From: Marivirga sericea
GTDB taxonomy: Bacteria; Bacteroidota; Bacteroidia; Cytophagales; Cyclobacteriaceae
Reading direction: 5' to 3'
Length of the DNA: 64,000 nt
Assembly (NCBI RefSeq): GCF_900177665.1
Contig: NZ_FXAW01000002.1
Location: 310,001 to 374,000 of the forward strand
Shown: positions 1,273-47,701 of the stretch, one piece after another
Position numbering within the stretch: position 1 is the first letter of the stretch
Layout of the letters: every line of letters starts with the position of its first letter
The notes under the pieces: generated by a model
Told to the model about the DNA's origin: nothing
The model's database searches: none
The model's input: only the letters and a program-made list of their open reading frames with translations
Translations under genes and position numbers: made by a program

Positions 1273-1285
1273 ACAATAATACCTA

Positions 1286-2553: not shown

Positions 2554-2572
2554 TTAAATATGGGGTTATAGA

Positions 2573-4372: not shown

Positions 4373-4373
4373 C

Positions 4374-9442: not shown

Positions 9443-9539
9443 ATTTGAACGGATTTACAAGGCATATTAATCAGGCATATCAATAATGCCTAAGGGCTTA
9501 ACGAACTAAGCCTTGACTGCAATCAAGTGAATGGAATGC

Positions 9540-9959
9540 TTAAATAAGGAACGACTGAACGAGCACAGGTATATCACGTTCAATCAGCGGGGGAGCATAA
9601 TTTGTAAACTCTGCTTTATGCTTCGTAGAAAGAAATGACCTGCCTGTAAAAGTAACGACAAAAGTAGAGATGAATTCTAAGTTCAAAGAACTACCAAATA
9701 CTTGATGCTGAAATTCATCTGCCATCTCAAGAGATTGATACTCATTTTCACAGCAAGGTTTTTTCTTGATTTGCTTTTCTTCGGAAGAACCGTTTTCACA
9801 AATCTTATCCATATCGGACATTCCACAATTTAATTCGGCATGACCGAGAACAAATTGCGATTCCACGGCCGATCCTCCACAATAGTGAGTAGCTACTGCC
9901 AGACCGGAATTACCGATAAGCAAGATAAATAGTAGCGTTATGGAGATTGTTTTTTTCAA
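9540..9959 (-). CDS. HYC_CC_PP family secreted protein
   Basis: A 139-residue protein with a signal peptide (about 1-23) and the three marks that name this family: T-H-Y-C-G-G just after the signal (residue about 25), a central K-K-P-C-C-E-N-E, and a C-terminal Y-A-P-P-L-I-E-R-D-I-P-V-L-V-Q-S-F. It is a small periplasmic or surface protein found in Bacteroidota next to copper/silver Cus-type systems; paired cysteines and histidines make metal binding likely, but no activity is established. It lies 97 bases upstream of cusA on the same strand and may be the first gene of that operon. Confidence 0.85.
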   Translation of the reverse strand: MKKTISITLLFILLIGNSGLAVATHYCGGSAVESQFVLGHAELNCGMSDMDKICENGSSEEKQIKKKPCCENEYQSLEMADEFQHQVFGSSLNLEFISTFVVTFTGRSFLSTKHKAEFTNYAPPLIERDIPVLVQSFLI

Positions 9960-10151
9960 AAAGTTGATTTTCGTCCTGTTAATAGTTTCTGAAACGTAAA
10001 ATTAAGAATAAATGATTCCAGATTCTGTTTAATATCATGTTTTAAATGTATGAAATTTCGCTCCGACATACCTTCCTCTCAAAGGTAATACCGCTATTTA
10101 AGCAATTCATTCAACTGACACTTTTACTATAATTTTTGCAATTAACCACCT

Positions 10152-10340
10152 TTAATCGGTCTTTCCGTTACCTGATGACTTGCGTGAATTATTCTCAAAC
10201 CTTTCATTATACCATTGATCTAGTAGATCGGCTTTCTCATCAGAAAGAGATTTCAAGGCTTTTTCATACTCCTTCGTTAAAAGCGTTTTATCAAAACTCA
10301 CTTTTTTAAGAATATCTTTACAGTATTCAAGCTTGTCCAT
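10152..10340 (-). CDS. Small conserved hypothetical protein, 62 residues
   Basis: Short, charged, predicted all-helical protein beginning M-D-K-L-E-Y-C-K-D-I-L-K-K-V-S-F-D-K. The start matches my memory of a small Bacteroidota family that begins with K-L-E-Y-C and continues into a two-helix hairpin. No signal peptide or membrane segment and one cysteine. It sits alone between a terminator-like hairpin after the porin gene and the HYC_CC_PP gene. Function is unknown. The coherent start codon and composition argue that it is a real gene and not a chance frame. Confidence 0.6.
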   Translation of the reverse strand: MDKLEYCKDILKKVSFDKTLLTKEYEKALKSLSDEKADLLDQWYNERFENNSRKSSGNGKTD

Positions 10341-10363
10341 TTTGTAAATCAGTATTCAGAAAA

Positions 10364-10386
10364 GTGCCGGAAATAGTATCCGGCAC
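10364..10386 (-). terminator. Hairpin terminator after the porin gene
   Basis: Perfect 8-bp inverted repeat GTGCCGGA / TCCGGCAC with a 7-base loop, starting 13 bases past the porin stop and followed on the minus strand by TTTTC. It has the form of a short rho-independent terminator for the porin transcript. Confidence 0.65.
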
Positions 10387-10398
10387 ATCTTCCCCTGT

Positions 10399-11670
10399 TT
10401 AAAAGCTAATTACTGCCTCAATGTTGATACCATCAAATTCGCCCCCATTATATTTGGTGCCTGTCCAGCCTTCACCTTCATACTTTTGATTTACATATTC
10501 CAGTTTGGCCATTACGTTTTTGGTCATATACCAGCCACCTCCTATATTCAGCCGATTTATTTCTTGCGTTAAAGCACTTTCTACCATTTCTCCGGAAACA
10601 GTGTTGTATCGTCCTCCCAGATAAAACTGTTCCGTACTTCCAAAACGATAAAGAAGTTCTCCTGCTAACTGTGTAAAAGCTCCTCCGCCTTGATCGTCAC
10701 TGTTTGAGGCTACCTCGTATATGCCAAAAAATTCCAAACCTTTATATTTGATAAACGGGTTGATCTGAATAGCAGTTAATTCTCTGAATCTTGGGTTAAA
10801 TCGTCCTTCAAAAGGCCCTCCATCACCATCTAAGGTCTCCATTACGTTATAATATCTGCTCCCTGCACGGTCTCCACCATAGATCCAGGTTCCTGTAGTG
10901 GTTCCTTTGTTAATATACCAGGAGCTTGTCAAACGCAATCTGAAATCATCACTCAACTGGTTATCATAACCCAGTTTTCCGAAAAAGGAAGCTTTGTTGT
11001 CAGAGTTGTCATTGACTACTACATTTTGATTCAATTTACCATTTGTTATTCCAATGACTCCCAAAAAACCATTTTTCATAATAGTAAGCTCACCGAAAGC
11101 CTCGGTAGAAAAAGCATCCATGATATAATTGCCTACAAATGGGTTAAAAATGGCCCGTGCATTATCACTTCTTCTGAAGTGGGCATCTCCATAATTGAAC
11201 TCGTCCAAGCCAATGGTTATACGGGCTACATCCATAAAACCTTGTAGAAAACCCGGTTTTATAAAGTCTAATTTGTCAATTTGAAGATAACCTCCTTTTA
11301 CCCATGCCTCCTGGTGATTTTTGGATGATAAATAAGTTCTCAAATGCATTCTCAATCCATCATATAGCTGGACATCAATGTTAAGATTGGCTGTAGGGAG
11401 GTTGAAATTTGTACCCAAATCTACCAGACTATCCAATGAGTTGGTTTGGTTTATACTTTGGAACTGCATGGCAAAATCACCTCCGATTCGTACTCTCACT
11501 CTATCAAACTCCACGGTGTCTTGCTTGGAAGGTTCAAATACATTAAGCCCGGCTTTATTATTAGGCCGGAAATGCTGTAGGGCAGGCTGCTGCGCATATG
11601 CTACACCTGTTGTAAGAAGCACCATTGAAAGTATGGTGGTTCTATACCAATTGTTGCTCGTTTTCATCAT
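10399..11670 (-). CDS. Outer-membrane porin-like beta-barrel protein
   Basis: A 423-residue protein with a signal peptide cut near A-Y-A-Q-Q (residue about 27), then repeating amphipathic beta-strand segments rich in Gly, Asn, Tyr and Phe. It ends in A-V-I-S-F, the C-terminal aromatic signature for outer-membrane barrel insertion. Strand pairs such as G-G-D-F-A-M-Q-F and L-E-F-F-G-I-Y-E-V are characteristic of porins. I cannot tell the substrate. It lies downstream of a broken YceI gene and the mercury-type operon on the same strand; whether it belongs to metal resistance is inference from position only. An alternative start one codon in (MK) is equally possible. Confidence 0.8.
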   Translation of the reverse strand: MMKTSNNWYRTTILSMVLLTTGVAYAQQPALQHFRPNNKAGLNVFEPSKQDTVEFDRVRVRIGGDFAMQFQSINQTNSLDSLVDLGTNFNLPTANLNIDVQLYDGLRMHLRTYLSSKNHQEAWVKGGYLQIDKLDFIKPGFLQGFMDVARITIGLDEFNYGDAHFRRSDNARAIFNPFVGNYIMDAFSTEAFGELTIMKNGFLGVIGITNGKLNQNVVVNDNSDNKASFFGKLGYDNQLSDDFRLRLTSSWYINKGTTTGTWIYGGDRAGSRYYNVMETLDGDGGPFEGRFNPRFRELTAIQINPFIKYKGLEFFGIYEVASNSDDQGGGAFTQLAGELLYRFGSTEQFYLGGRYNTVSGEMVESALTQEINRLNIGGGWYMTKNVMAKLEYVNQKYEGEGWTGTKYNGGEFDGINIEAVISF

Positions 11671-11680
11671 TATCTGAATT

Positions 11681-12009
11681 TTAATTTATTAACTTAAATG
11701 TTATTTTAAAGGAAATTTCTAGTTCATCATCGGCTTTGATTGTTCCAAATACAGCTTTTGGAGAATCAATTTTATATTGCGTGAAAGTAATGGGAAATCC
11801 CTTGTTAACGGAATCGCCCATTCCGAAACCTTGTACTTAATTTGAAGTGGTATCATGCAGGTGCTGGTTACTGCAAGAGTGATTTCACCTTCTCTCTTAA
11901 ATCCCTGATTTGGGGCAAGTACAAGGGTTTGTTGTGCTATTGACTGCCTGCCCGACATCAACCAAACAACCAGCACAAGAATCCAAATGTATTTTCTAGT
12001 GCGTCTCAT
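11681..12009 (-). pseudogene. YceI-family periplasmic protein, frameshifted and shortened
   Basis: An ATG at 12007-12009 starts a signal peptide (about residues 1-26, ending S-I-A-Q) and a short stretch ending near M-I-P-L-Q-I-K-Y-K. A second frame then takes over around 11831-11843 and reads G-F-G-M-G-D-S-V-N-K-G-F-P-I-T-F-T-Q-Y-K, then a P-K-A-V-F-G-T-I-K segment and a strand ending S-F-K-I-T-F-K, stopping with TAA at 11681-11683. That second piece is the typical C-terminus of YceI lipocalin-like proteins. The undisturbed first frame would give an unrelated 96-residue tail. Total length (about 109 codons) is well below the usual 180-200, so a middle part also looks lost. Confidence 0.72.
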
Positions 12010-12384
12010 TAGTTATTTTAGTTTCGTAATCATATCCTATAGGTATATATGAGAAAAAATGCATGATTATTATCTTTTTAGAAATCCCCTTCAAATGTAT
12101 TTAGATATGCTTGAGTAAGCTGTATAGTATTGTGTCTATTATGTATGAATTCTTGTTTTGACAGGGCTGAATGAAAAATATTGATTTGCCCTGCCTGCTA
12201 AGGTGACTCCGGACGAATGCCAATATCAGGAATGGAAGGTGTGAAAGAAGAAGGGCAGGTACAATGGTATAAATTGTATTTGCGGAATTACTGATTAGTA
12301 TTTAATCTCAGAAGCTAAAAAGGAAATTGCAATTAAGAACATATAGTTGATTTCAGATTTTACGTTTTGATTTCAACACCTTTT
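12010..12384. other. Intergenic region without a recognised gene
   Basis: About 375 bases between the flavoprotein gene and the YceI remnant. I see no convincing ORF, RNA gene or strong hairpin. The part at 12180-12260 is richer in G and C than its surroundings and could be decayed sequence, but I could not match it to anything. Confidence 0.5.
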
Positions 12385-13728
12385 TTAAACCATAGATCCG
12401 ATATCAGATGCCATAGACGGATAGGAATAGACCATGTCCCTGATGTCCGAGACCTTAAGCTTTGCCTTAATTGTCATAGCAAAAAGGTTGATCATTTCTT
12501 CAGCATGAGGGCCAATGATGTGGGCTCCTAAAATGTACCCTTCTTTATCGGAAATGATTTTATAAGCATAAGTTGATTCATTGATCCGTTTGGCATTGTA
12601 CCAACTTGATGCTGAGCTGGCTTTTACCTGATATTCTAAACCTGCCTTCTTTGCCTGTGCTTCCGTCATGCCAACCGCGGCAAGTGTGGGCAAGGTAAAG
12701 ACTGAACTGGGCATTTCCGTGTAGTCAGGCTTTTTGGAGTTACCCCGTATAATATTGGTTGCCACTGCATGGCCTTCCATAACTGCAACAGGTGTGAGAT
12801 TGAGACCTTTGCTATCAGCCGCATCACCTGCTGCATATACCCGTTCATTGGTTAAACTTTGTAGGTATTCATTTACGTCAATCCCTTTCTTGCCGTAGGA
12901 AATGTTTGCCTTTTCCAGGTTCATGCCATCCAACTCCGGTACTCTACCTGCTGCATTCACCACCAAATTCGTTTGAATAGTTTTTTCACCCCCTTTTGAT
13001 TCTGCCTTTACGGTATAGCCACTATCCTTTTTTTCAACTGCAACCACATCCCACTCAAGGTGAAGTTCAATCCCCAATTCCTCAGTAGCTTTGACCAAGT
13101 GCTTCACGATATCAGACTCAAAGCTTTCTAAAGGCATTTTGCCTCGGTGGAATATGGTCACTTTACTTCCGGCCCTGACAGCCAGGTGGGCAAACTCCAT
13201 CGCTATATATCCGCCTCCAATAAAGGTGATGTGCTCAGGGAGTTTTCCCAGATTTAGAAAATCTGTGCTGTCAATTGGTAAATTACCCCCTGGAATATCA
13301 AGAACAACAGGTCGGACACCTGTAGCTATCACTATTTTATCAGCTTCCAGTAGGTCGTCTCCGATGCGCACCGTGTTTTCAGATTCAAAGCTGGCTGTTC
13401 CATGATACATTTCTACACCTGACTTTTCATAGCCTTTCTCCACATTTTTAGGCATTTTGGAAACTAACTCATTTTTGTAAGCCATCAAATCCTGCCAATT
13501 GATGGAGATATGTCCTTGAATACCGATTCCCTTCATTTTATTGGCCCGGTCTATAATTTCAGCAGCTCCGACTAATATTTTCTTAGGATCACAACCGCGT
13601 AGTGCGCACGTTCCACCATACGGTCTGGAATCTGTAACGGCAGTCTTTAGTCCTTTTTTAGCACATTTATTGGCAATGGTCATTCCTCCCATGCCTGATC
13701 CGATTACAATTACATCGTATTTTTTCAT
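12385..13728 (-). CDS. FAD/NAD(P)-dependent disulfide oxidoreductase, MerA-like position
   Basis: About 447 residues in the dihydrolipoamide dehydrogenase/glutathione reductase fold. It has an N-terminal FAD site G-S-G-M-G-G-M, a redox pair in G-G-T-C-A-L-R-G-C-D-P-K-K (Cys about 41 and 46), an NAD(P) site G-G-G-Y-I-A-M-E-F and the second FAD motif V-Y-A-A-G-D-A-A-D. It occupies the mercuric reductase position, but lacks the MerA N-terminal HMA domain and the C-terminal vicinal Cys pair. Its disulfide motif differs from the usual G-T-C-V-N-V-G-C-V-P-S-K, and the C-terminal His-Pro of classical members is Y-P-S. The start is taken at the ATG that overlaps the upstream TGA by one base; three TTG/CTG codons upstream are less likely. 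Confidence 0.88.
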   Translation of the reverse strand: MKKYDVIVIGSGMGGMTIANKCAKKGLKTAVTDSRPYGGTCALRGCDPKKILVGAAEIIDRANKMKGIGIQGHISINWQDLMAYKNELVSKMPKNVEKGYEKSGVEMYHGTASFESENTVRIGDDLLEADKIVIATGVRPVVLDIPGGNLPIDSTDFLNLGKLPEHITFIGGGYIAMEFAHLAVRAGSKVTIFHRGKMPLESFESDIVKHLVKATEELGIELHLEWDVVAVEKKDSGYTVKAESKGGEKTIQTNLVVNAAGRVPELDGMNLEKANISYGKKGIDVNEYLQSLTNERVYAAGDAADSKGLNLTPVAVMEGHAVATNIIRGNSKKPDYTEMPSSVFTLPTLAAVGMTEAQAKKAGLEYQVKASSASSWYNAKRINESTYAYKIISDKEGYILGAHIIGPHAEEMINLFAMTIKAKLKVSDIRDMVYSYPSMASDIGSMV

Positions 13729-13946
13729 CAGCAGCAATTGTTTTTACCACCTTCCTGAATGGGAGGACAGGCATTTGTTCCATAGCTGCAATACACGCAG
13801 CAATCACCTTGTTTTGGCTTTAATACTTCTTGGCAGTTTTCACATTCGTAAAAGTATTGGCATGCATCCGTAGGCATGATTTCTTCTTTTTGATGTCCAC
13901 AGTTTGGACAGGTAATGGTGGATTGTAATACGATCTCTTTTTCCAT
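13728..13946 (-). CDS. GDCCVxC-domain small metal/thiol protein
   Basis: A 72-residue cytosolic protein with two zinc-ribbon-like pairs, C-P-N-C-G-H (about 14-17) and C-E-N-C-Q (about 35-38), and the family signature G-D-C-C-V-Y-C-S-Y-G-T (about 47-57), ending N-N-C-C. Ten or more cysteines make it a thiol or metal carrier. Homologues in other bacteria include selenoproteins with Sec in the G-D-C-C-V-x-C motif; here all positions are Cys. It lies between the HMA protein and the flavoprotein in a tightly packed operon, so a role in passing a soft metal or reduced thiol to the reductase is plausible (inference). Confidence 0.85.
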   Translation of the reverse strand: MEKEIVLQSTITCPNCGHQKEEIMPTDACQYFYECENCQEVLKPKQGDCCVYCSYGTNACPPIQEGGKNNCC

Positions 13947-13948
13947 TA

Positions 13949-14281
13949 TTAATCGATTTTAGGTTTTAGTACTTCTGCTTTATAGGTTGTTTTTTCTTCA
14001 ATTGCTGCAATAAGCTGTTCAGGTTGGGTTTGTTTGGGGTCATAATCCACTACAGCTATATCTCCGGGATATTGCACTGAGTTGTCAATCACCCCTTTTG
14101 TTTCTTTCAAAACCTTGTAGAGATGACTGGCACAACCGGCACAGGTGAGCCCGGTGACTTTGAGCTTAACTGTCTCACTTTTCTGAATAGTTTTGACTGT
14201 TTTTTGAGGATCAGCAGATTGTGCCATTCCATGTCCTGCAAGCAAGAAGATGAATGCTAGGCTGAAAATTATGGGTTTCAT
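13949..14281 (-). CDS. Secreted HMA-domain metal-binding protein (MerP-like)
   Basis: A 110-residue protein with a signal peptide (about 1-20, ending G-M-A-Q) and one heavy-metal-associated domain with G-L-T-C-A-G-C-A-S-H (about residues 45-54), the MerP/CopZ-type two-Cys site. It probably binds a soft metal ion in the periplasm and delivers it to the MerTP protein encoded seven bases upstream. It is longer than classical MerP (about 91 residues) because of a Lys/Thr-rich linker after the signal. Metal identity (Hg, Cu or other) cannot be read from the motif alone. Confidence 0.87.
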   Translation of the reverse strand: MKPIIFSLAFIFLLAGHGMAQSADPQKTVKTIQKSETVKLKVTGLTCAGCASHLYKVLKETKGVIDNSVQYPGDIAVVDYDPKQTQPEQLIAAIEEKTTYKAEVLKPKID

Positions 14282-14288
14282 TTTTCTA

Positions 14289-14939
14289 TTAATTTAAGGT
14301 TTCTTCTTTTATAATTTTCTTGCCAGTGACTTTATAGCCAGTGGCTTCCTCCACCGCAGTTGCCAATTGCTCAACAGATACTTTTGATTGATCAAACTTT
14401 ACCAATGCAATACCGTTTTCGTAGGAAGAAGAAGCTTCGAGAACGCCTTCGCTATTATTAAGTGCTGCATTCACGCTATGCTCACAACCGGTGCAGGTCA
14501 TGCCTTTGATACTAAGCTCAGCATTCAGAATATCATTTTCACTTACCACGATAACATTGGATGTATTGCTATTGTCAGAGAAAAAGATGCCGGAATAAGT
14601 CGGAAAAGCAAGCATCAATACAGCAAAGACGGTAACGATTCCAAGAAACTTCTTAGACTGCCAAAAAGTGGGCTGTTCATCGTCCTCGCAAGCGCATTCA
14701 ATTTCTTCCTGTGTCCTTGGCTTTAATTTCTGGTACCAGGCAAACCCTAACACCAAAACTGTAAGACCTATTAAATAAGGCCTGAATGGCTCCATCCATG
14801 AAAAGGACGATGCAATGCCTCCTATGCCTGCGAGTGTCGCAAAAACAGGGGTGACACAGCATAGTGAAGAAGTGAATGCCACTAACAATCCGGCTCCAAT
14901 GTTTTTTGATGAGGTATTTGATTGGTTTGAACTACTCAT
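14289..14939 (-). CDS. merTP: MerTP-type metal transporter (MerT helices plus HMA domain)
   Basis: A 216-residue inner-membrane protein. The first helix (about 15-42) carries S-S-L-C-C-V-T-P, the vicinal Cys pair that receives metal in MerT. A second helix lies near 52-68, then a cytosolic loop E-I-E-C-A-C-E-D-D (about 77-85), a third helix near 95-115, and a C-terminal HMA domain with G-M-T-C-T-G-C-E-H (about 143-152). This matches the fused MerTP architecture known from Bacteroidota mercury operons: uptake of Hg(II) toward the cytosolic reductase. The start overlaps the ArsR-type regulator stop by four bases. Confidence 0.88.
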   Translation of the reverse strand: MSSSNQSNTSSKNIGAGLLVAFTSSLCCVTPVFATLAGIGGIASSFSWMEPFRPYLIGLTVLVLGFAWYQKLKPRTQEEIECACEDDEQPTFWQSKKFLGIVTVFAVLMLAFPTYSGIFFSDNSNTSNVIVVSENDILNAELSIKGMTCTGCEHSVNAALNNSEGVLEASSSYENGIALVKFDQSKVSVEQLATAVEEATGYKVTGKKIIKEETLN

Positions 14940-31629: not shown

Positions 31630-32670
31630 TCACTTGTTAATTAACTCAAGTGAAAGACGAGTCCCTGCTTCTAAATCTGTAGTAAAAGTCTTTCCTAAAA
31701 TTGAACTTAAGTATTTGGGATGAAGACCGAAACCAGGACGAACACTACGCACATTCTCTTCAGTTATTGTTTCACCTTTTTTAACATCAGTCGCGATGTA
31801 AAGAGATCGTGAAAAATCTTTGCCTTTTCTTTGTTTTTCCGTCAATCTGTAATCTACTATTCCAACAGCTTTTTCAGCCTCTCGTACTGCTTTTACCATG
31901 TCACTAAACTCCTGCTCGTCCATTGAGAATGATGCATCCGGCCCCCCTACTGATTTGTCTAAAATAAAATGTTTCTCAATGATTTTCGCACCTAGAGATG
32001 TAGCCACAATTGGAACTGTGCTCCCTAAGGTGTGATCTGAAAGCCCGGAAATGACTCCATAACGTTTAGCTAGATCTTTGACCATTATCATATTAGCTTC
32101 TTCAATCGGAGCAGGATAACTTGAGGTACATTTTAATAATCCGATAGCATTATTTCCCATTCTGTTACAGGCGTCTAGTGCCAATTCTATGTCTTCTTTT
32201 TCAGCAATACCGGTCGAAATAATAACGGGCTTACCCTTTGAGGCTGTATATTCAATTAAAGGGATATCGGTGATCTCAAAGGAAGCAATTTTATAAGCAG
32301 GTGTATTTAATGTCTCTAAAAAATCGACTGCTGTTTTGTCGAAAGGTGAGGAAAAGCATACTAGTCCTTCTGCTGCCGCTGCTTTGAATAATGTTTCATG
32401 CCACTCCCAGGGAGTAAAGGCCTCTTTATATAAATCGTAAAGATTTTTTCCTTGCCAAATAGTCCCTTTGATCATAAAGTCATCTAGCTTTGAATTAAGA
32501 GTTATGGTATCTGCGGTATATGTTTGTAATTTAATGCAGTCTGCCCCAGCTCTTTTGGCGGCTTTTATAGTGGCCAAGGCAGTCTCTAAGCTACCGTTAT
32601 GATTGGCGGAAAGTTCAGCGATTATAAAAACAGGCTTATTCGGTCCTATATAATGATTTTTGATTCTCAT
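31630..32670 (-). CDS. pseI: Pseudaminic acid synthase (PseI/NeuB family)
   Basis: A 346-residue enzyme that condenses phosphoenolpyruvate with a 2,4-diacetamido-hexose to give a nonulosonic acid. The NeuB barrel occupies about 1-270 with I-I-A-E-L-S-A-N-H-N-G and C-I-K-L-Q-T-Y-T; W-Q-G-K-N-L-Y-D-L-Y-K-E-A-F-T-P-W-E-W is typical of PseI and differs from NeuB/LegI. G-L-S-D-H-T-L-G and K-H-F-I-L-D lie in the catalytic barrel, and a C-terminal SAF antifreeze-like domain follows (about 285-346). It is the last gene of the nonulosonate operon and overlaps the tandem GNAT gene by four bases. Confidence 0.93.
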   Translation of the reverse strand: MRIKNHYIGPNKPVFIIAELSANHNGSLETALATIKAAKRAGADCIKLQTYTADTITLNSKLDDFMIKGTIWQGKNLYDLYKEAFTPWEWHETLFKAAAAEGLVCFSSPFDKTAVDFLETLNTPAYKIASFEITDIPLIEYTASKGKPVIISTGIAEKEDIELALDACNRMGNNAIGLLKCTSSYPAPIEEANMIMVKDLAKRYGVISGLSDHTLGSTVPIVATSLGAKIIEKHFILDKSVGGPDASFSMDEQEFSDMVKAVREAEKAVGIVDYRLTEKQRKGKDFSRSLYIATDVKKGETITEENVRSVRPGFGLHPKYLSSILGKTFTTDLEAGTRLSLELINK

Positions 32671-33680
32671 GCTATTGTTTTTTCAAATTTGATCTCTCTA
32701 TCGTTCTGGTAACTGATACTGAATTTAAGCTTTTCAAATATTCGAATAGAGGCAATATTTTCTTTTATAACAAACCCATAAACGTGGTCTATGTTCGGTT
32801 TTGTCTGAACTAGCTTTTTTATTCCATTTTCCAGCAAATAAGTTCCGTAACCTCTGCCAGTACATCTAGGATCTACAAGATAACTTATCATGGCACTACT
32901 TCCCATATCGTCAATATCAAAACGAATTGAACCAGCAATCTTATTCTTATTCTCTTCAAGAATATAATATTTACAGTTATTGGAACTGAGCTTACTTAAA
33001 AACCATTCAGAGTGTTCTTCTTTTTCAATGCGTTTTTGATTATAGGCAAATGTTCTAACAAGTTTATCATTTGCCCAGGTGTAGGTGGTTTCCAAGTCAT
33101 CACTTGCAGCTTCCCTCAAAATCATAGTAAGCTTAATTTTTGAATGAATTAAAACATCAACAAATTTTCCCTCAAATAAGCAATGCTCATTTAATGTAGC
33201 TTCTTTCCTAAATTCTCTATTTGCAAGTGCAATGTACAATCTTGGTCTTAAATCGAATGCATAAGTGTAAATTTTATGAAAGTTCAATTGCTCAAATGCA
33301 ACTTCCTCTATAAGTTCCAAATACTTACTCCAATGATATTCAAAATACTCTTCCTCTAGTGATGTATCCATTATAAAGGAGATTTCCGCATTTTTATCTT
33401 TCCAATTGATGTGAACTAATCCACCGTAACCGATACATTTATCATTTTTCAGATATGAAAATAGAATTTGATTTGGACTTTCCTGCGGAAATAATTTTGA
33501 AACTACATCTGTGAAGTATTGATCCTGCTTTTCTTTTGTTAATAGCTCATCTTGACGTAAATGATAGATTTGTTCATTTCGCCATTGCATAATCGAATAC
33601 CTATCTTCATGTCTAATAGGAACTAAGGAATAATTTCCGGAACTAAAAGTCTGCTTCTTAAAAACTCTATATCGGTCCAA
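32667..33680 (-). CDS. Tandem GNAT acetyltransferase-like protein
   Basis: A 337-residue protein made of two GNAT-type halves. The second (about 182-335) has the acyl-CoA site pattern in L-V-D-P-R-C-T-G-R-G-Y-G-T-Y-L-L and N-I-A-S-I-R-I-F-E-K-L-K-F. The first (about 12-170) keeps the overall alpha/beta order (Y-S-L-V-P-I-R-H-E-D, W-R-N-E-Q, G-Y-G-G-L-V) but has a weak acyl-CoA loop and may be inactive. In comparable operons this slot often holds PseG, the UDP-sugar hydrolase; no such fold is seen here. It probably acetylates an amino group of the sugar precursor. Confidence 0.8.
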   Translation of the reverse strand: MDRYRVFKKQTFSSGNYSLVPIRHEDRYSIMQWRNEQIYHLRQDELLTKEKQDQYFTDVVSKLFPQESPNQILFSYLKNDKCIGYGGLVHINWKDKNAEISFIMDTSLEEEYFEYHWSKYLELIEEVAFEQLNFHKIYTYAFDLRPRLYIALANREFRKEATLNEHCLFEGKFVDVLIHSKIKLTMILREAASDDLETTYTWANDKLVRTFAYNQKRIEKEEHSEWFLSKLSSNNCKYYILEENKNKIAGSIRFDIDDMGSSAMISYLVDPRCTGRGYGTYLLENGIKKLVQTKPNIDHVYGFVIKENIASIRIFEKLKFSISYQNDREIKFEKTIA

Positions 33681-33685
33681 TTTTG

Positions 33686-34993
33686 TTAGTTTAAACGTTT
33701 AAAACCAGCATGGCAAACAGGTCCTTCCAGTAAATGATCTATTGTTTTATCCCCCTTTTCACAATCTGAGATCGTCTTATAAATATCAGATAGAGCTTCA
33801 AAGTACTTTTCAAAGTCATTCTCAGAATGTGCAATTGATGCATAAAAAATAGTACTTGCTAAAAATCCCTTCTTCAACATCTCCTGTGTAATGTAAGTTT
33901 TATACTTTAAATGATTCTCACTGTCAAATGAGTAAGAGGAAAGCGAAGGAATCCCTGCAATTTTAATATTTAAATTAAATTCATTAGCAAGTCTCTGCCA
34001 ACCTTCCCTCATTAATTGACCCTTTTCTGTAATGATTTCCCATGATTTAATTTTATCCATTACTTCTAGGGTTTTTAAAGCTGCAGTTGGGCCTATTCTT
34101 TCCGTCCAAAAAGTACTACTTATAAAAGTTTTCTGAGCAGCTTCCATTACACTTTTTTTCCCTACTACTGCCGTTAATGCGTAACCATTGCCTATAGTTT
34201 TCCCAAACATTGCCATATCTGGCTCGACTCCATATTTTTTGTAGATACCACCGAATGTCTCTCTAAAACCAGAAGTACATTCATCGAAAATTAGTACAAT
34301 ATTATTTTCAGTAGCTAAATCCCGCACCTTTTGCAAGAAATTATTATCAGGACCAAAATTCCGGACGACTTCCATTTTTATGACACCAATATCTCCCTTT
34401 GAAACTATTTCTTTTAATCCTTCAAAATCATTGTAATTAAATGGAACAGTGGTATTTTTCAATTCTTTGGGTACACCTGTTGGATCAAGTCCAGGTAATA
34501 GATGATTACCTAAGCCATCTCCTGAGCCTAAATTAGTTGATATATACCAATCGTGCCATCCATGGTACCCACAAATTGCAACTTTATCTTTTCCAGATGC
34601 AGCTCTTGCTATCCGAATTGCAATTGCATTTGCTTCTCCACCACTTCGGGCGAATCTTACCATTTCAGCCCAAGGATTAATTTCTATTAATTTTTCTGCT
34701 AAATGTACTTCTTCTGGGCAACATAAGGTACTCATATTGCCTTTTTTGACAGTCTCGATAACGGCTGAATCAACTTCTTCATTTCCGTAGCCAAGAGTGT
34801 TCGTACCTATGCCCATAATACTCATATCAGTAAGTTCGGTTCCATCTAAGTCCCAAACCTTACATCCTTTGGCTTTTGAAAAGTAGGAGGGCCAATGTTC
34901 AGGCAAAAACATCTCAGGTCTTTTAGAAAGCAACATAGTGCCACCAGGAATGATTTGTTTTGCTTTTTTATATAATTCTTGTCCTTTTCCCAT
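33686..34993 (-). CDS. Class III (GSA-aminomutase-like) PLP aminotransferase
   Basis: A 435-residue PLP enzyme similar to glutamate-1-semialdehyde aminomutase. Landmarks are I-P-G-G-T near residue 15, the R-S-G-G-E-A-N-A-I-A-I-R phosphate loop (about 113-124), Y-H-G-W-H-D-W (about 142-148), I-F-D-E-C-T-S-G-F (about 234-242) and the catalytic Lys in F-G-K-T-I-G-N-G-Y (about 265). It is not in a haem-synthesis context: its neighbours are SpsF and PseI, so its substrate is probably a keto-sugar or nonulosonate intermediate (inference). Separated from the SpsF gene by one base. Confidence 0.85.
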   Translation of the reverse strand: MGKGQELYKKAKQIIPGGTMLLSKRPEMFLPEHWPSYFSKAKGCKVWDLDGTELTDMSIMGIGTNTLGYGNEEVDSAVIETVKKGNMSTLCCPEEVHLAEKLIEINPWAEMVRFARSGGEANAIAIRIARAASGKDKVAICGYHGWHDWYISTNLGSGDGLGNHLLPGLDPTGVPKELKNTTVPFNYNDFEGLKEIVSKGDIGVIKMEVVRNFGPDNNFLQKVRDLATENNIVLIFDECTSGFRETFGGIYKKYGVEPDMAMFGKTIGNGYALTAVVGKKSVMEAAQKTFISSTFWTERIGPTAALKTLEVMDKIKSWEIITEKGQLMREGWQRLANEFNLNIKIAGIPSLSSYSFDSENHLKYKTYITQEMLKKGFLASTIFYASIAHSENDFEKYFEALSDIYKTISDCEKGDKTIDHLLEGPVCHAGFKRLN

Positions 34994-34994
34994 A

Positions 34995-35771
34995 TTAGTA
35001 ACTGTTGTTATCCTTTTTAAGTGACTTTAGATATCCTTCGTTTCGAATAATTTTTTGATTATTGAACATATCCTGATTAGTAAGTATGAAATCACTATAA
35101 TCTAACCAGGATTTTTCTGAACCAAGTTCTTTAATTAAAGTCTGAATTGTCTTAAGATCATCTGGCTCATCAACTGTCATTCTGATATCTGAAAATTGTG
35201 AATCAACTGAAAGGTTTTGAGCTTTAAAGAGATGACCACCATTATAATCTGAATTTTTTCTAATGTAGGGTGTAACATGTTCTCTGTCAGAAGCTATTTT
35301 TGCATCTTTCCAAGCTTTTTCTAAAGACTTCCACCTGATTACCTCTATATCTTGTCCGTCAGGGAAATCTTCCTTTAATACATTAGAAGCATAATCAAGA
35401 TCATTCTGAATAGCAAGCGAAATTACTTGATCTATCAAATCAGCATCAATCAATGGACAATCTGAAGTTACTCTTACTATATAATCAGGCTGATGATTTT
35501 TCGCAGCTTGATAAAACCTATCCAAAACATCAATAGTAGAACCTTTAAAAGATAGGACTCCTTCAGATTTAGCTATCATTTCTATCTTTTCTGCCTTTTC
35601 TTCAAAGGTAGTAGCTACAATTATTTCACTATATAATCGAGAATGTTTCAGTCGCTGCAAATGTAAAGCCAGCATTGACAATCCCGAATCCACCTCATGC
35701 AACACTTTTTCAGGAAACCGACTACTTCCTACTCTTGCTTGAGTGATAAATACGATTTTTAAATTTTCCAT
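34995..35771 (-). CDS. SpsF/COG1861-type cytidylyltransferase
   Basis: A 258-residue nucleotidyltransferase. The start I-T-Q-A-R-V-G-S-S-R-F-P-E-K-V-L (about 10-25) is the SpsF nucleotide-binding loop, which is not the A-R-G-G-S-K-R-I of true PseF/NeuA proteins. R-V-T-S-D-C-P-L-I-D (about 100-109) contains the metal-binding Asp and T-V-D-E-P-D-D-L (about 200-207) a later acidic motif. It is expected to activate the nonulosonic acid with CMP. The 3' end of the aldo/keto reductase gene overlaps its start by 13 bases. Confidence 0.85.
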   Translation of the reverse strand: MENLKIVFITQARVGSSRFPEKVLHEVDSGLSMLALHLQRLKHSRLYSEIIVATTFEEKAEKIEMIAKSEGVLSFKGSTIDVLDRFYQAAKNHQPDYIVRVTSDCPLIDADLIDQVISLAIQNDLDYASNVLKEDFPDGQDIEVIRWKSLEKAWKDAKIASDREHVTPYIRKNSDYNGGHLFKAQNLSVDSQFSDIRMTVDEPDDLKTIQTLIKELGSEKSWLDYSDFILTNQDMFNNQKIIRNEGYLKSLKKDNNSY

Positions 35772-36631
35772 TTTGAAGGGTTCAGCAAAAAATTGTCAAT
35801 TACATTTATTTCATCAATAGCATTTATAAGATCTTCAGGAAGTTGTGGATTTATGTTTGCCATATTTTGATTCAATTGGCTTACATTATCTACTCCAAAA
35901 AGTACACCATCAATATATTTTTTATTCAATACATAATTTAAGGATAATTCTTGTACACTAATATCGTATTGATTGCATAACTTTTTAATTTCATCTAAAA
36001 ATGGAATCAGCGGACTTAATCCTTTTGGTATAACTTCCTTGTTCATAAAAAAAAGTCCCTGCAAAAAAGATGATCTAGTATGTACAATTTTCCCTTTGCT
36101 TTGTAATTCCTTAAATAGATGACCTCTTTGAGTTTTATTATCCAAAAGATTGAACGGTGCTTGAATAACATCAATTAAGTCATTATCTAATAGTTCAATG
36201 ATTTCATTATTATCATATATTGAAACTCCAATTTTTTCAAATAAATTTCCTTTATGCTTGTTAATGCTATTTCTATGCTTATTAATATTTTTTTTAAAAT
36301 CAGTAAATGAATGGAATAGAATTGTATTAACAGAATCAATTTTAAGATTTGTTAAACTCGCTGTTAAAGATTTTTCAAAATCCACGCTATCATCAGTCTT
36401 AATTTTTGTGATTATTTTAAAACCCATTTCAGGATTACTTTGCAAAAAGTCTCCAATAAGCTTTTCGGAGTTACCATATGCGGCAGCAGTATCTAATGTT
36501 CTAATACCATGTTCGTATGCTTTTTTTAAAATAGTAAAAATTTCTTGCTTAGATGGTTGACCCACAAGGTTATTTACTCCATAAGGAATTCCAAATTGAA
36601 CTGTACCTAAAATGAGCTTTTTTTCAGTCAT
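35759..36631 (-). CDS. Aldo/keto reductase
   Basis: A 290-residue TIM-barrel NAD(P)H oxidoreductase. L-G-T-V-Q-F-G begins the barrel; the catalytic tetrad is visible as D-T-A-A-A-Y (Asp about 47, Tyr about 52), K-I-I-T-K-I-K (Lys about 75-81) and I-L-F-H-S-F (His about 107). It sits between the GNAT and SpsF genes, overlapping both. Reductases of this class accompany SpsF and GSAM-like genes in some nonulosonate clusters. The actual substrate, perhaps a keto-hexose, is not known. Confidence 0.85.
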   Translation of the reverse strand: MTEKKLILGTVQFGIPYGVNNLVGQPSKQEIFTILKKAYEHGIRTLDTAAAYGNSEKLIGDFLQSNPEMGFKIITKIKTDDSVDFEKSLTASLTNLKIDSVNTILFHSFTDFKKNINKHRNSINKHKGNLFEKIGVSIYDNNEIIELLDNDLIDVIQAPFNLLDNKTQRGHLFKELQSKGKIVHTRSSFLQGLFFMNKEVIPKGLSPLIPFLDEIKKLCNQYDISVQELSLNYVLNKKYIDGVLFGVDNVSQLNQNMANINPQLPEDLINAIDEINVIDNFLLNPSKWKI

Positions 36632-37169
36632 ATCGATAATTTGGGTTAAATAAGGCCATTCTTATAACATCGCAGTACTTGCCATTGTGGAATGCATGTT
36701 TTAGAAAGCGTCCCTCTTCTTCAAATCCTAATTTTTCATATAGTTTCACAGCTGCAATATTATCTTTTAGAACTCCTAGTGTTATTTTTCTTAAATTCAA
36801 TCCTTCAAAAAAGCAAAATCTAATCACTCTATTAGAAGCTTCGGCAGCGTACCCTTTTCCCCATTCTAATTTGTCACCCATCATTATACCATATTCTCCC
36901 ACACTATGTTTACTATTAATTGGATCAATTTTAATGTTGCCAATATGTTTCTGATTTTCTTTTAAATGTATGGCCCAAAAATAAATATTGCTATTTTGAA
37001 CTTCATGCAGATAATCATTTAACATTTCCTTAGTATAATTACCACCAGTTTCGAGAAATTGATAAATGACATAATCATTTAGCCAATTCACATATTGATC
37101 TGTGCAATAGTTTAGGTTTAAAGGTTTGTAAGACAAACGTTCAGATTCAAATTCTTTAGCTTTCACCAT
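36624..37169 (-). CDS. GNAT N-acetyltransferase, probable PseH role
   Basis: A 181-residue GNAT protein of the RimJ/PseH kind. It contains F-W-A-I-H-L (about 55), G-E-Y-G-I-M-M-G (about 81-88), the acyl-CoA loop W-G-K-G-Y-A-A-E-A-S (about 95-104) and the C-terminal N-I-A-A-V-K-L-Y-E-K-L-G-F (about 143-155). Placed directly after PseC, it is the natural candidate for acetylating the 4-amino group of UDP-4-amino-4,6-dideoxy-AltNAc, the step of PseH. Position supports that role; sequence alone does not distinguish it from other sugar acetyltransferases. Confidence 0.8.
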   Translation of the reverse strand: MVKAKEFESERLSYKPLNLNYCTDQYVNWLNDYVIYQFLETGGNYTKEMLNDYLHEVQNSNIYFWAIHLKENQKHIGNIKIDPINSKHSVGEYGIMMGDKLEWGKGYAAEASNRVIRFCFFEGLNLRKITLGVLKDNIAAVKLYEKLGFEEEGRFLKHAFHNGKYCDVIRMALFNPNYRYD

Positions 37170-37258
37170 TTTAAGCTATTATTTCAATAAATCTTTCAAA
37201 AATCAATTCGTAGTTTCATCTGATAGATGGATTAATTTACTTAAAAGATATGGATCAA

Positions 37259-38443
37259 TCATTCAAAGAATATTCTAATAGTTTCTAAAATAAATTCCTG
37301 GTCTTCGTCAGACAAGGTTGGAAACATAGGTAAGCTAATACAATGCTTATAATAAGTCTCGGCATGGGGCATGTCACCTTCTTTCCAACCAAACTGTCTA
37401 TAATACGGCATTAAGTGGGTAGGGATGTAATGAATTTGAGCAAATATTTTGTTTTCTCTTAGATGGTTGTACAATCCTAACCTGTCCTCAACTTCAATTA
37501 CGTACAAATGATAGGCATGACCTTCAATTACTCCAGATTGACCTTTGATAAATTTCTGATTTTTAAACGCATTAAAATATTTTTCTGCAATTTTTCTTCT
37601 TTTTCCTAATCCTTCATCAGCTCTTTTTAATTGACTTAATCCTAAAGCTGCCTGAAAATCAGTCAACCTATAGTTATAACCCAAGTCCTGCATTTCCATG
37701 TACCAGGCAGGGTAATCAATTTCACCGCCTGCAAATTCAACCGAATTTTCGTACAAATCTTCATCCTTTGTAATACCGTGAGTTCTCAGCTTCATTAACT
37801 TTTCGTAGAGACCTTTATCATTTGTGGTGATCATCCCACCCTCTCCAGCTGCAATATGCTTTACAGGATGAAATGAGAAAATAGCTAAATCTGCATACTT
37901 ACCATTTCCACAGTTTTGTTTTTGAGCTGTGCTGTCTATGAAATATCCACCAGGAGAGTGGCAAGAATCTTCAATAATCCATAGTCCGTACTCATATGCC
38001 AGTTTCCTAAAAGCTTCTAAATCTACTGCTCTACCAGCGAAATCTACTGGTATTATGCCTTTGTAGGTTCCTTTTGAGGAAGCCTCTAAAAGCTCTCGTA
38101 CTTTTTCTATATCTAATAAATAGGTTTCTGGATCAATGTCAGCAAATACTACCTCTCCACCACAATACCTGATGCAGTTGGCCGATGCAGCGAAAGTGAT
38201 GGGTGTTGTGATTACCTTATCACCAGGCTTCACATTCAAAGCAAGGCAGTTCAAGTGTAATGCGGCTGTGCCATTCGCAACGGCAATAGCATATTTAGCG
38301 CCGACGTAATCAGCAAAAGCTTCCTCAAATTCCTTAATTTTAGGCCCTTGAGTGAGATAATCTGATTGTAGTGTTTCTACTACTGCTTGAATGTCTGCTT
38401 CTGTTATATCTTGCTTTCCGTATGGAATTACTTTTTCATTCAT
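37259..38443 (-). CDS. pseC: UDP-4-amino-4,6-dideoxy-L-AltNAc transaminase (PseC)
   Basis: A 394-residue DegT/DnrJ/EryC1 PLP aminotransferase. Y-L-T-Q-G-P (about 29-34), A-N-G-T-A-A-L-H-L (about 57-65), E-D-S-C-H-S-P-G-G (about 158-166) and the Schiff-base Lys in S-F-H-P-V-K-H-I-A-A-G-E-G-G (Lys about 193) fit the PseC subgroup. It converts the PseB keto-sugar to the 4-amino sugar using glutamate. It overlaps pseB by four bases, and the acetyltransferase gene follows after 89 bases. Confidence 0.92.
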   Translation of the reverse strand: MNEKVIPYGKQDITEADIQAVVETLQSDYLTQGPKIKEFEEAFADYVGAKYAIAVANGTAALHLNCLALNVKPGDKVITTPITFAASANCIRYCGGEVVFADIDPETYLLDIEKVRELLEASSKGTYKGIIPVDFAGRAVDLEAFRKLAYEYGLWIIEDSCHSPGGYFIDSTAQKQNCGNGKYADLAIFSFHPVKHIAAGEGGMITTNDKGLYEKLMKLRTHGITKDEDLYENSVEFAGGEIDYPAWYMEMQDLGYNYRLTDFQAALGLSQLKRADEGLGKRRKIAEKYFNAFKNQKFIKGQSGVIEGHAYHLYVIEVEDRLGLYNHLRENKIFAQIHYIPTHLMPYYRQFGWKEGDMPHAETYYKHCISLPMFPTLSDEDQEFILETIRIFFE

Positions 38444-39456
38444 ACCTCAAATTCTGGGTCAACATGTTCTTTAATCAACTTTCGTAAGCTTTCTACGCTT
38501 TCCCATTCAGTATTTTCTGCAGAATTATATTGAAAACCTTCTTTTACTTTGGTTGCGTTAAAATGAGCTATAAAATCCTTTAAATCCCATTTATGTGTTG
38601 CTGGAAGTATAGTGTAATATTTGCCCAAGTCATAAGTATAATAAGAATCAGATGAAGTAATCATTTCTTCATGAATTTTTTCACCAGGCCTAATTCCTAT
38701 TATTGGTTTAGCTGCCTGAGGACTTACTGCTTCGGCCACGTCAGTAACCTTATAAGATGGTATTTTTGGTATAAATATTTCTCCACCCCACGCTTGCTCC
38801 ATAGCATGCATAACCATGTCTACACCTCCTTGCAAGGAAATATTGAAACGAGTCATTGTTGGGTCGGTAATAGGTAGTATCCCTTCATTTTTTTTTCTTA
38901 GGAAAAAAGGAATAACAGAACCATTAGACCCCATTACATTACCATAGCGAACTACAGAGAATTTAATAGGATTCCATCCAGTAATATTATTAGCTGCTAT
39001 AAAAAGCTTATCAGATGCTAATTTTGTCGCTCCATATAAATTTATTGGTGCGCAAGCTTTGTCTGTTGATAATGCAACAACTCGTCCAACGCCAGTTTCC
39101 AAGCATGCATTAATCACATTTTGCGCTCCATTCACATTTGTTTTGACGCACTCCTCTGGGTTATATTCTGCCAAATGGACATGTTTCATAGCTGCAGCAT
39201 GTATTACATAGTCTACATCCTTACATGCCCGAACTAACCTATCCTTATCTCTTACATCCCCAATTAAGAAGCGTAATTTAGGATAACTATTTTGAGGGAA
39301 CTCTTGGGCCATCTGAAACTGCTTTTGCTCATCTCGTGAAAAAATTACAAGCTTTCTTATTTCAGAATGATTTGTTAATATATGTTTTGTTAGAGCTTTT
39401 CCTAACGAACCCGTGCCCCCAGTGATTAATATAGTTTTATCTTTATAAATACTCAT
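38440..39456 (-). CDS. pseB: UDP-GlcNAc 4,6-dehydratase, inverting (PseB)
   Basis: A 338-residue SDR enzyme. The NAD(P) loop is T-G-G-T-G-S-L-G (about 12-19). H-A-A-A-M-K-H-V (about 86-93), S-T-D-K-A-C-A-P (about 129-136) and Y-G-A-T-K (about 140-144) are the active-site elements of the PseB/FlaA1 short form. It removes water and inverts C5 of UDP-GlcNAc, the first committed step of pseudaminic acid synthesis. It is a soluble short form and not a membrane-bound FlaA1/CapD-type protein. Overlaps the UDP-xylose synthase gene stop by four bases. Confidence 0.92.
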
Positions 39457-44466: not shown

Positions 44467-45576
44467 CTATAAACTTTTAAGAGTCTCAATAATATCCTTT
44501 ATTGGCAACTCATAAAAAAGAGGCAATCTTACTAAACAATCAGAATAATGATCAGTGTTTGGTAAATCTCTTCCGTCATGTTTATTTTGATAGAAAGGAC
44601 TGTCATGTAGAGATAAGTAATGAAAAACAGCCAATATACCTTTTTCTTTTAATTCTGTGATAAAACGATTTCTTCTTTCCAACGAATCCGTTACAACATA
44701 GTACATATGTGCATTATTTGTAGCATAGGCTGGCATTGAAGGCAATTTGAGCCATGGGATGGCCATTTCTTTAAAAAGCTCATTATAAGTTTGCCATAAT
44801 TCTTTTCTTCGATTTTGGATGTCCTGCAGATTTTCTAACTGTGCCCATAAAAATGCTGCTATTACCTCCGATGGTAAAAAAGAACTTCCAACGTCTACCC
44901 AGCCATACTTATCAACCTCACCTCTAAAAAATGCACTTCTGTTTGTTCCCTTTTCCCAAATGATTTCTGCTCTGGCCTCAAATTGTTCATCGTTTATAAC
45001 TAGCATTCCGCCTTCCCCAGAAATTACATTTTTTGTTTCATGGAATGAAAAGGCCGCTAAATGTCCGATGCTTCCCAAAGGGTTTCCTTTATAAAAGCTA
45101 TCAATAGCTTGAGCAGCATCCTCAACCACCCATAGATTATGGCGCTTTGCGATGTTCATAATCGCATCCATGTCACAAGCAACACCAGCATAATGAACAA
45201 CTACAATGGCTTTAGTTTTTGGTGTGATTAAATTCTCTATGGACTTTTCATTTATCCCAGGATGATCTACTCTCGAGTCAGCAAAAACCAATTTTGCACC
45301 TCTGAGAACAAATGCATTAGCAGTTGAAACGAAGGTGTAGGAAGGCATAATTATTTCATCACCTTCTTCAATATTCAAGAGAATAGCAGCCATTTCCAGT
45401 GCATCAGTACAAGAAGTGGTGAGCAAACATTTCTTAAATCCATAATGCTTCTCAAAAAACTGATGACATTTTTTGGTGAACATTCCATTTCCTGAAATCT
45501 TTCCTGATTGAACTGCTTCTGTAATGTACTCGGTCTCTCTTCCGGTTAAATATGGTTTATTGAAAGGGATATTCAT
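44467..45576 (-). CDS. rffA: dTDP-4-amino-4,6-dideoxygalactose transaminase (WecE/RffA)
   Basis: A 369-residue DegT-family PLP aminotransferase. I-P-F-N-K-P-Y-L-T-G-R-E (about 3-14), G-K-I-S-G-N-G (about 25-31), T-T-S-C-T-D-A-L-E-M (about 53-62), V-E-D-A-A-Q (about 152-157) and the Schiff-base Lys in S-F-H-E-T-K-N (Lys about 181), then W-V-D-V-G-S-S-F-L-P-S-E, match WecE closely. It aminates dTDP-4-keto-6-deoxyglucose to dTDP-Fuc4N; the WecD-like acetyltransferase two genes upstream would finish dTDP-Fuc4NAc. The enzymes making its substrate (RmlA, RmlB) are not in this window. Confidence 0.93.
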   Translation of the reverse strand: MNIPFNKPYLTGRETEYITEAVQSGKISGNGMFTKKCHQFFEKHYGFKKCLLTTSCTDALEMAAILLNIEEGDEIIMPSYTFVSTANAFVLRGAKLVFADSRVDHPGINEKSIENLITPKTKAIVVVHYAGVACDMDAIMNIAKRHNLWVVEDAAQAIDSFYKGNPLGSIGHLAAFSFHETKNVISGEGGMLVINDEQFEARAEIIWEKGTNRSAFFRGEVDKYGWVDVGSSFLPSEVIAAFLWAQLENLQDIQNRRKELWQTYNELFKEMAIPWLKLPSMPAYATNNAHMYYVVTDSLERRNRFITELKEKGILAVFHYLSLHDSPFYQNKHDGRDLPNTDHYSDCLVRLPLFYELPIKDIIETLKSL

Positions 45577-47011: not shown

Positions 47012-47701
47012 TTATTGCCAGTAATGATAAATATATTTTTTTTCAACAACCTCGAAATCATTTTTGTAATAAAGTTTTACCGCACCTAAATTGGCTTCTT
47101 GAGTAGATACATTTAAAAATTGACCGTCATTGATTTTTTCCTCACAGGCCCTAATTAATTTTGAAGCTATTTTTCTTCCTTGCGACTCAGGGTCTACCGC
47201 TATTAAGCCAATTTGGCCAGTACCGTAATTATCTATTCTTAATGTCACAAAGCCAATAATTCTTGTTTTATATTGAGCAACCAAAATATAATCTGCTATA
47301 TTCTTATTAATGCTCTCATCCAACCACTTCTTATACAGTTTTCTAAAATTATTCTCTCCAAACTTTTCATCTAACTTATATCGTGAAAATTCACCACTGA
47401 GATAGGCTAAATTTTCAATTTCATCGTAGGAATCAGTTTTTAGATTAAAGCTTGAAAATGAAATCTCACCTAAATTATTAAAAACAGATTCTTCTCTATG
47501 AATAACTTTTTTTTGAAATATCAATTTGGTATCAACATGCTTAAGGCCTGGCCAGTCCAAAGCATAATCAGAGAAAAAGTATATCAGTTTGAATTCCTTA
47601 GCTAACTCTTCGACATTATGCAGAGACCTGTCAGCATTAACATCAATTCTTCCAATAGGAAAGCCAAAAAAGTCTGAATCCCAATCTAATTTCTTAACCA
47701 C
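47012..47701 (-). CDS. GNAT acetyltransferase, WecD/RffC-like
   Basis: A 229-residue protein. The start L-D-W-D-S-D-F-F-G-F-P-I-G (about 4-16) is the WecD opening, followed by S-R-Y-K-L-D (about 131-136), F-R-K-L-Y-K-K-W-L, I-G-L-I-A-V-D-P-E-S-Q-G-R-K-I (the acyl-CoA loop, about 176-190) and N-L-G-A-V-K-L-Y-Y-K-N-D-F. WecD acetylates dTDP-Fuc4N to dTDP-Fuc4NAc, the reaction directly after WecE, whose gene lies nearby. The start overlaps the upstream transferase gene stop by eight bases. Confidence 0.82.
   Translation of the reverse strand: MVKKLDWDSDFFGFPIGRIDVNADRSLHNVEELAKEFKLIYFFSDYALDWPGLKHVDTKLIFQKKVIHREESVFNNLGEISFSSFNLKTDSYDEIENLAYLSGEFSRYKLDEKFGENNFRKLYKKWLDESINKNIADYILVAQYKTRIIGFVTLRIDNYGTGQIGLIAVDPESQGRKIASKLIRACEEKINDGQFLNVSTQEANLGAVKLYYKNDFEVVEKKYIYHYWQ

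Follow-up and report, generated by a model that had tools for sequence, protein, structure and literature searches.

How can an operon complete the pathway to a CMP-activated pseudaminic acid (Pse; CMP, cytidine monophosphate) when it does not encode the enzyme that removes uridine diphosphate (UDP)? This question is raised by Marivirga sericea (GCF_900177665.1), in a window of 64,000 nucleotides (contig NZ_FXAW01000002.1, positions 310,001–374,000, forward strand), which is the whole stretch analysed here. The CMP-Pse pathway of Campylobacter jejuni and Helicobacter pylori uses PseB, PseC, PseH, PseG, PseI and PseF (PMC7910423). An eight-gene operon on the minus strand of the window, running from 39456 (PseB) down to 31630 (PseI), is a variant of this pathway. 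The two have PseB, PseC, PseI, a PseH-like GNAT domain (GNAT2) and a CMP transferase in common, but the operon is without PseG and PseF. It has a GNAT domain, GNAT1, in the PseG slot and SpsF for PseF, as well as an extra aldo/keto reductase (AKR), a class-III aminotransferase (GSAT) and an acyltransferase (GNAT-A). On genomic and sequence grounds, we consider it likely that the operon makes a CMP-activated Pse-type nonulosonate, that the PseH-like GNAT1 removes UDP in place of PseG and, less securely, that AKR and GSAT separately make this an 8-amino sugar. The genes and domains, identified with curated NCBIfam cut-offs and Pfam models, are:

38440–39456, minus strand: PseB dehydratase (TIGR03589, 506 bits; cut-off 408)
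37259–38443, minus strand: PseC aminotransferase (TIGR03588, 472 bits; cut-off 423.5)
36624–37169, minus strand: GNAT-A, acyltransferase, perhaps for the extra amino group (TIGR03585, 56.9 bits, cut-off 93.1; SpeG model, 63.7 bits)
35759–36631, minus strand: AKR, proposed C8 oxidoreductase (PF00248)
34995–35771, minus strand: SpsF-type CMP-nonulosonate cytidylyltransferase (PF02348, CTP_transf_3)
33686–34993, minus strand: GSAT, class-III aminotransferase, proposed to aminate C8 (PF00202)
33126–33680, minus strand: GNAT1, N-terminal GNAT domain (residues 1–185) of a tandem protein, proposed replacement for PseG
32667–33125, minus strand: GNAT2, C-terminal GNAT domain (residues 186–337) of the tandem protein, probable PseH (4-N-acetyltransferase; TIGR03585, 76.5 bits)
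31630–32670, minus strand: PseI nonulosonate synthase (TIGR03586, 506 bits; cut-off 340)

An earlier note on this DNA, made from the sequence alone, had named clear PseB, PseC and PseI proteins, and all three score above their curated cut-offs. The AKR, the aminotransferase and the tandem GNAT that it listed are likewise borne out, the last being a 337-residue protein with two GNAT domains. Its gene starts with TTG, in agreement with the N-termini of relatives. The note had also placed a GNAT in the PseH position. A PseH-like GNAT is indeed present, but the PseH model TIGR03585 matches GNAT2 better than the GNAT at 36624–37169, both falling below the cut-off. Judged by sequence, GNAT2 is probably PseH, and GNAT2-type domains occur fused to PseG in other genomes.

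The absence of PseG is real and recurrent. TIGR03590 found no match at E ≤ 0.001 in the operon or in the whole host genome (4.74 Mb, 99.97% complete), and the sole match at E ≤ 0.01 (16.8 bits, model positions 170–269) is MurG-like. A profile built from 11 PseGs of the same class (alignment A5) scored 430 and 273 bits in two positive-control genomes and found no PseG in the M. sericea genome. The whole-genome profile search that the earlier note had proposed therefore agrees with its statement that PseG is missing, and also with its conclusion that UDP must be released by another route. For PseF, the operon cytidylyltransferase reaches 21.9 bits and the best match genome-wide 40.4 bits, against a cut-off of 205.7. 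As the note had it, SpsF is the predicted occupant of PseF's place.

When the tandem GNAT protein was used to query 295 genomes of the class, 20 matches were returned, 18 to the GNAT1 domain and two to GNAT2 alone. Both of the latter are the C-terminal part of PseG-GNAT2 fusions, and GNAT1-GNAT2 here is therefore the counterpart of PseG-GNAT2 elsewhere, with GNAT1 replacing PseG. The PseI profile matched in 81 of the 295 genomes, 53 of them over the PseI cut-off; the 28 below it (NeuB/LegI-like) were excluded. The 53 include every one of the 18 GNAT1 genomes and divide into 34 with PseG only, 18 with GNAT1 only, none with both and one with neither. Full-length PseG in the 34 genomes gave best matches of at least 90.8 bits; in the GNAT1 genomes the PseG model matched weakly and over part of its length, with no more than 28.9 bits. 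In the single genome with neither (G039), PseI lies at the edge of a 3.3-kb contig; it was kept in the 53 and omitted from the PseI tree. Fisher's exact probability for this pattern, which ignores kinship, is 2.9e-13. Kinship does not explain the exclusion, as five genera (g5, g26, g63, g88 and g103) contain both kinds, and a PseI tree of 52 rows, made by a quick method, requires at least 11 changes of the PseG or GNAT1 label, five of them forced by well-supported branches. Shuffled labels gave a mean of 15 changes, so the label is mildly clustered.

The same exclusion was seen in other collections. A sample of 80 loci was gathered with GSAT as the query, 23 of the 80 genomes lying outside the genome-wide searches. 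GNAT1 is present in seven of these loci, and PseG in none of the seven genomes. A search of 50 other genomes of this sample with the GNAT1 profile met only two weak matches, in G303 (60.5 bits) and G305 (44.2 bits); both genomes are without PseG and neither was counted as GNAT1. At E ≤ 1e-10, GNAT1 was found in none of 39 genomes whose GSAT loci carry PseG. When 395 genomes of the phylum were searched with the profile, 10 matches came up, namely three already met, six new ones with the full YGGLVH motif, and one in G448 (77.6 bits) that was not counted because another GNAT model fits it better and the YGGLVH motif is missing. None of these seven newly met genomes has PseG. The total is 31 GNAT1 genomes with PseG in none, though the same species may be present in two collections (the seven GSAT-sample genomes may overlap).

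Matched operons place GNAT1 where PseG would be. Those of G281 and G176 share, in order, genes for PseB, PseC, a methyltransferase-like protein, a protein of 383/384 residues, HisH-like, HisF-like and PseF-like proteins and PseI (names of the non-Pse genes were read from sequence, except HisF, which was identified in a sister locus). The shared genes are 61–81% identical, and the only exchange is of GNAT1-GNAT2 for PseG-GNAT2, the GNAT2 parts being 43% identical. In G146 and G176, which belong to one genus, the six upstream genes are 95–98% identical and PseI 92%. As G146 carries an SpsF-type gene and two further genes beside GNAT1-GNAT2 between the shared genes, this swap is larger than one gene. 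The operon of G247 consists of PseB, PseC, PseF (300 bits), GNAT1, a PseH-like GNAT (42 bits) and PseI and no more, with GNAT1 in the PseG slot. GNAT1 and PseG/SpsG (GT28-like, TIGR03590) share an operon slot, a GNAT2 fusion partner and a complementary occurrence, but are unrelated in fold and sequence. From its slot and its mutual exclusion with PseG, for which the genomic evidence is strong, GNAT1 is probably a UDP-sugar hydrolase.

The earlier note had raised the possibility of a PseG-like GT28 fold hidden in the tandem protein. AlphaFold models the whole protein (pLDDT 93.6, pTM 0.69) as two GNAT domains with no GT28 fold and the GNAT1 domain (pLDDT 93.9) with a GNAT fold, and all 50 Foldseek matches listed for GNAT1 are GNATs, so this idea fell away. 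The top three matches in the PDB were to H. pylori PseH (4ri1, E about 1e-13, TM 0.74–0.76, 17% identity), with SpeG next. All 25 GNAT1 members match Acetyltransf_4. The pyrophosphate loop of GNATs sits after strand 4 (PMC4964394), where the GNAT1 model has instead a 26-residue helix directly after the strand. A loose loop motif, G-x-[GA] after strand 4, was found in 1 of 25 GNAT1 sequences, compared with 15/15 for PseH, 40/42 for GNAT2 and 51/53 for GNAT-A-like proteins (windows of 40, 40, 55 and 60 residues were scanned, respectively). GNAT1 has 25 invariant columns in the acceptor half and none in the CoA (coenzyme A) half, against 10 and 7 in PseH. Loss of the loop together with invariance of the acceptor half is the pattern expected of a GNAT that has given up CoA while still binding its former acceptor.

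The invariant residues of GNAT1 include R34, N35, R42, Q43, H90, W93 and E99. In the PseH set, helix 1 ends in an invariant W-R-N, most of which is conserved in GNAT1, where R34 and N35 are invariant; the PseH invariants G96, G98 and N126 (alignment A4) are not retained in the GNAT1 alignment (A2). PseH has been modelled with Arg30, His49, Thr80, Lys81 and Tyr94 at the substrate (PMC4363471, structure 4ri1). GNAT1 is thus like PseH in its fold, in its best Foldseek match and in R34-N35, and differs in lacking the loop and the three PseH invariants; moreover, PseH is often present besides GNAT1. We lean towards the view that a PseH-like GNAT lost CoA binding, became a nucleotide-sugar hydrolase and was swapped with PseG repeatedly across Bacteroidota operons, including by direct domain swap.

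By family membership, PseB and PseC would convert UDP-GlcNAc (GlcNAc, N-acetylglucosamine) to UDP-4-amino-4,6-dideoxy-AltNAc (AltNAc, N-acetylaltrosamine), and GNAT2, in the PseH role, would acylate N4. GNAT1 would then take UDP off in place of PseG, and the free hexose would pass to PseI and then SpsF. The UDP-sugar that PseC makes is bound by PseH, whose product is in turn the substrate of PseG, so a GNAT with a UDP-sugar pocket and an activated water near C1 could perform the next step. In GNAT1, with the acetyl-CoA loop gone and the acceptor pocket frozen, water would attack C1 and UDP would depart. Candidate acting residues are the invariant H90 and E99, which may lie in the pocket beside R34, R42 and Q43. 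The sugar handed on appears to be the same as in PseG operons, as PseIs are interchangeable on the tree; a PseI specialised for PseG-less operons was rejected, since PseIs of both kinds intermix. If this reading is true, GNAT1 would, to our knowledge, be the first GNAT-fold protein to hydrolyse a nucleotide sugar, and would show how an acyltransferase scaffold can come to hydrolyse the intermediate that follows. It would also close a gap in Bacteroidota Pse operons that annotation makes look broken, and supply an enzyme for sugar synthesis. No published PseG replacement or PseG-less operon was found among the open-access papers listed, though one may be in print elsewhere.

Several points weigh against a hydrolytic GNAT1. 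We know of no GNAT-fold nucleotide-sugar hydrolase. In a sequence profile search, SpeG structures (35 bits) match GNAT1 better than PseH 4ri1 does (23 bits), for which reason we call GNAT1 PseH-like and not PseH-derived. CoA binding persists in some GNATs whose loops are atypical, and the loop of H. pylori PseH has itself been called atypical (PMC4964394). GNAT1 is the only labelled GNAT in 8 of the 18 class operons. A formyltransferase was found in four of these, where GNAT1 is retained without a second GNAT having been found, a point in favour of the hydrolase reading; in the other four (L113, L121, L123 and L125), the weakest cases, no formyltransferase was identified and GNAT1 could therefore be an acyltransferase. 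Finally, six GSAT loci (L032, L034, L043, L062, L081 and L103), in genomes without PseG, have neither PseG nor GNAT1, and other ways of losing UDP therefore exist. The GNAT fold, the CoA binding of atypical loops and the last four operons would suit a GNAT1 that is a further N-acyltransferase, with an unusual donor or CoA site, in cells where an unrecognised housekeeping hydrolase encoded elsewhere removes UDP. We nevertheless think this unlikely. It leaves both the exclusion of GNAT1 and PseG (together in none of 53 genomes) and the exchange between matched operons unexplained, and 10 of the 18 class GNAT1 operons hold another GNAT too; in G081 (locus L119), GNAT1 occurs together with a PseH above cut-off (155.7 bits).

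Tandem GNATs with one inactive domain are known (PMC4964394), and GNAT1 might accordingly be an inactive or structural domain, with hydrolysis acquired by PseI or GNAT2. This is very improbable. Of 25 relatives sampled, 17 encode GNAT1 as a gene by itself, the domain has 25 invariant columns, and PseIs found beside GNAT1 or PseG mix on one tree, down to pairs with 92% identity. Removal of UDP by a NeuC/LegG-type hydrolysing 2-epimerase, yielding another stereoisomer, has a bare outside chance. NeuC is over its cut-off in 5 of the 18 GNAT1 genomes of the class, but not in the other 13, which include M. sericea (best match 95.9 bits, cut-off 235.9), and NeuC was rejected as a general PseG substitute; the intermixing of PseI types also argues for the same substrate. 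UDP-sugar hydrolysis by GNAT1 remains the reading that we prefer.

Of the six loci with neither PseG nor GNAT1, four have a small protein near PseI (L032:7903–8553, L043:12229–12987, L062:10844–11470 and L081:7941–8534). Those of L062 and L081 are DUF218 proteins (PF02698) and the other two look alike by eye; they are perhaps a third stand-in for PseG. In the remaining two, which are also without the adjoining PseC-GSAT order, an RmlD-like short-chain dehydrogenase (SDR) gene adjoins PseI (L034:11308–12201 and L103:11348–12229, with a Pfam match for L103). The GNATs of G448 and L034:13228–13782 have a related N/Y-x-I-D-W motif and scores between those of GNAT1 and PseH-like models, and are possible intermediates. 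In the GNAT1 operon L125 an ATP-grasp domain is fused to an epimerase. In G591, which belongs to a different class of the phylum, GNAT1 forms the N-terminal end of a 517-residue protein (L184:7417–8970), the remainder of which appears ATP-grasp-like by eye.

The note had allowed that, without PseG, the final sugar might not be standard Pse, and had read the extra enzymes as a sign of a modified nonulosonic acid. The reductase and aminotransferase do point to a modified sugar, but a link from the missing PseG to these enzymes, or to a product that is not Pse, is not supported. The 80 relatives of GSAT (65–79% identity) are mostly within nonulosonate operons, with AKR near in 72 and SpsF near in 74 (fused to GSAT in 57). 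PseG is near in 60 and further off in two more (L036 and L051). A GSAT orthologue is present in only one of the 18 class GNAT1 operons, and the module is therefore independent of the route of UDP removal; dependence of PseG loss on GSAT was rejected, as most GSAT loci have PseG and most GNAT1 operons are without GSAT. GSAT itself falls under every HemL cut-off shown (TIGR00713, 200.7 bits, cut-off 527; best model PRK06209, 249.8 bits, cut-off 486). We conclude that AKR, SpsF and GSAT form a separate, widespread tailoring module, usually accompanied by PseG and probably acting at C8. AKR would oxidise the C8 hydroxyl and GSAT would then aminate C8 to give an 8-amino sugar, a weaker proposal than that for GNAT1.

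In Acinetobacter baumannii prophages, EpaA, an SpsF-AKR fusion, acts with the SDR EpaB to convert Pse to 8-epi-Pse, as shown by nuclear magnetic resonance (PMC12053666). The extra enzymes here might likewise serve 8-epimerisation, or an acyl group, instead of 8-amination, an alternative that is quite possible though we doubt it. Both systems have SpsF and AKR domains adjoining a Pse pathway, and SpsF-AKR fusions with the domain order reported for EpaA are found in two of the 80 GSAT loci (L081 and L061). However, in the M. sericea operon the genes are separate, an aminotransferase stands in lieu of the SDR and no gene is annotated as a stand-alone SDR like EpaB, and a transaminase adds nitrogen. 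The GNAT1 operon L125 carries AKR, SDR and SpsF. Among phage records, the search for an EpaA homologue gave only three weak AKR matches (23–25% identity). An 8-amino nonulosonate, a sugar type described in 2003, is known from the O-polysaccharide of Flexibacter maritimus (PMC3210612); the available passages name no genes for it. Two observations on Legionella count against 8-amination. The gene cluster of serogroup 6 combines PseG with a GSA-aminotransferase and a cytidylyltransferase (PMC3694923), and the title of a work cited in PMC3210612 gives the sugar of non-1 serogroups as lacking an 8-amino group, though serogroup 6 is perhaps not covered. The available part of a paper on Leptospira nonulosonates names neither an AKR nor a semialdehyde aminotransferase. 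For 8-amino nonulosonates, the AKR, SpsF and GSAT module offers a genetic lead.

Another subfamily of class-III aminotransferases, 28–31% identical to GSAT, takes its place next to AKR and SpsF, in operons with PseG as well as in operons with GNAT1 (L118:8304–9665, L127:10554–11918, L137, L138, L140 and L143). Elsewhere in the window, a WecE/FdtB-type aminotransferase (44467–45576; PRK11706, 569 bits) lies near a further GNAT (47012–47701), and the two perhaps make a 4-amino-4,6-dideoxy sugar of the same locus. To the left of the polysaccharide locus, positions 601–14939 hold, by eye, metal-efflux RND genes and genes for a mercuric-reductase-like flavoprotein and a MerT-like protein.

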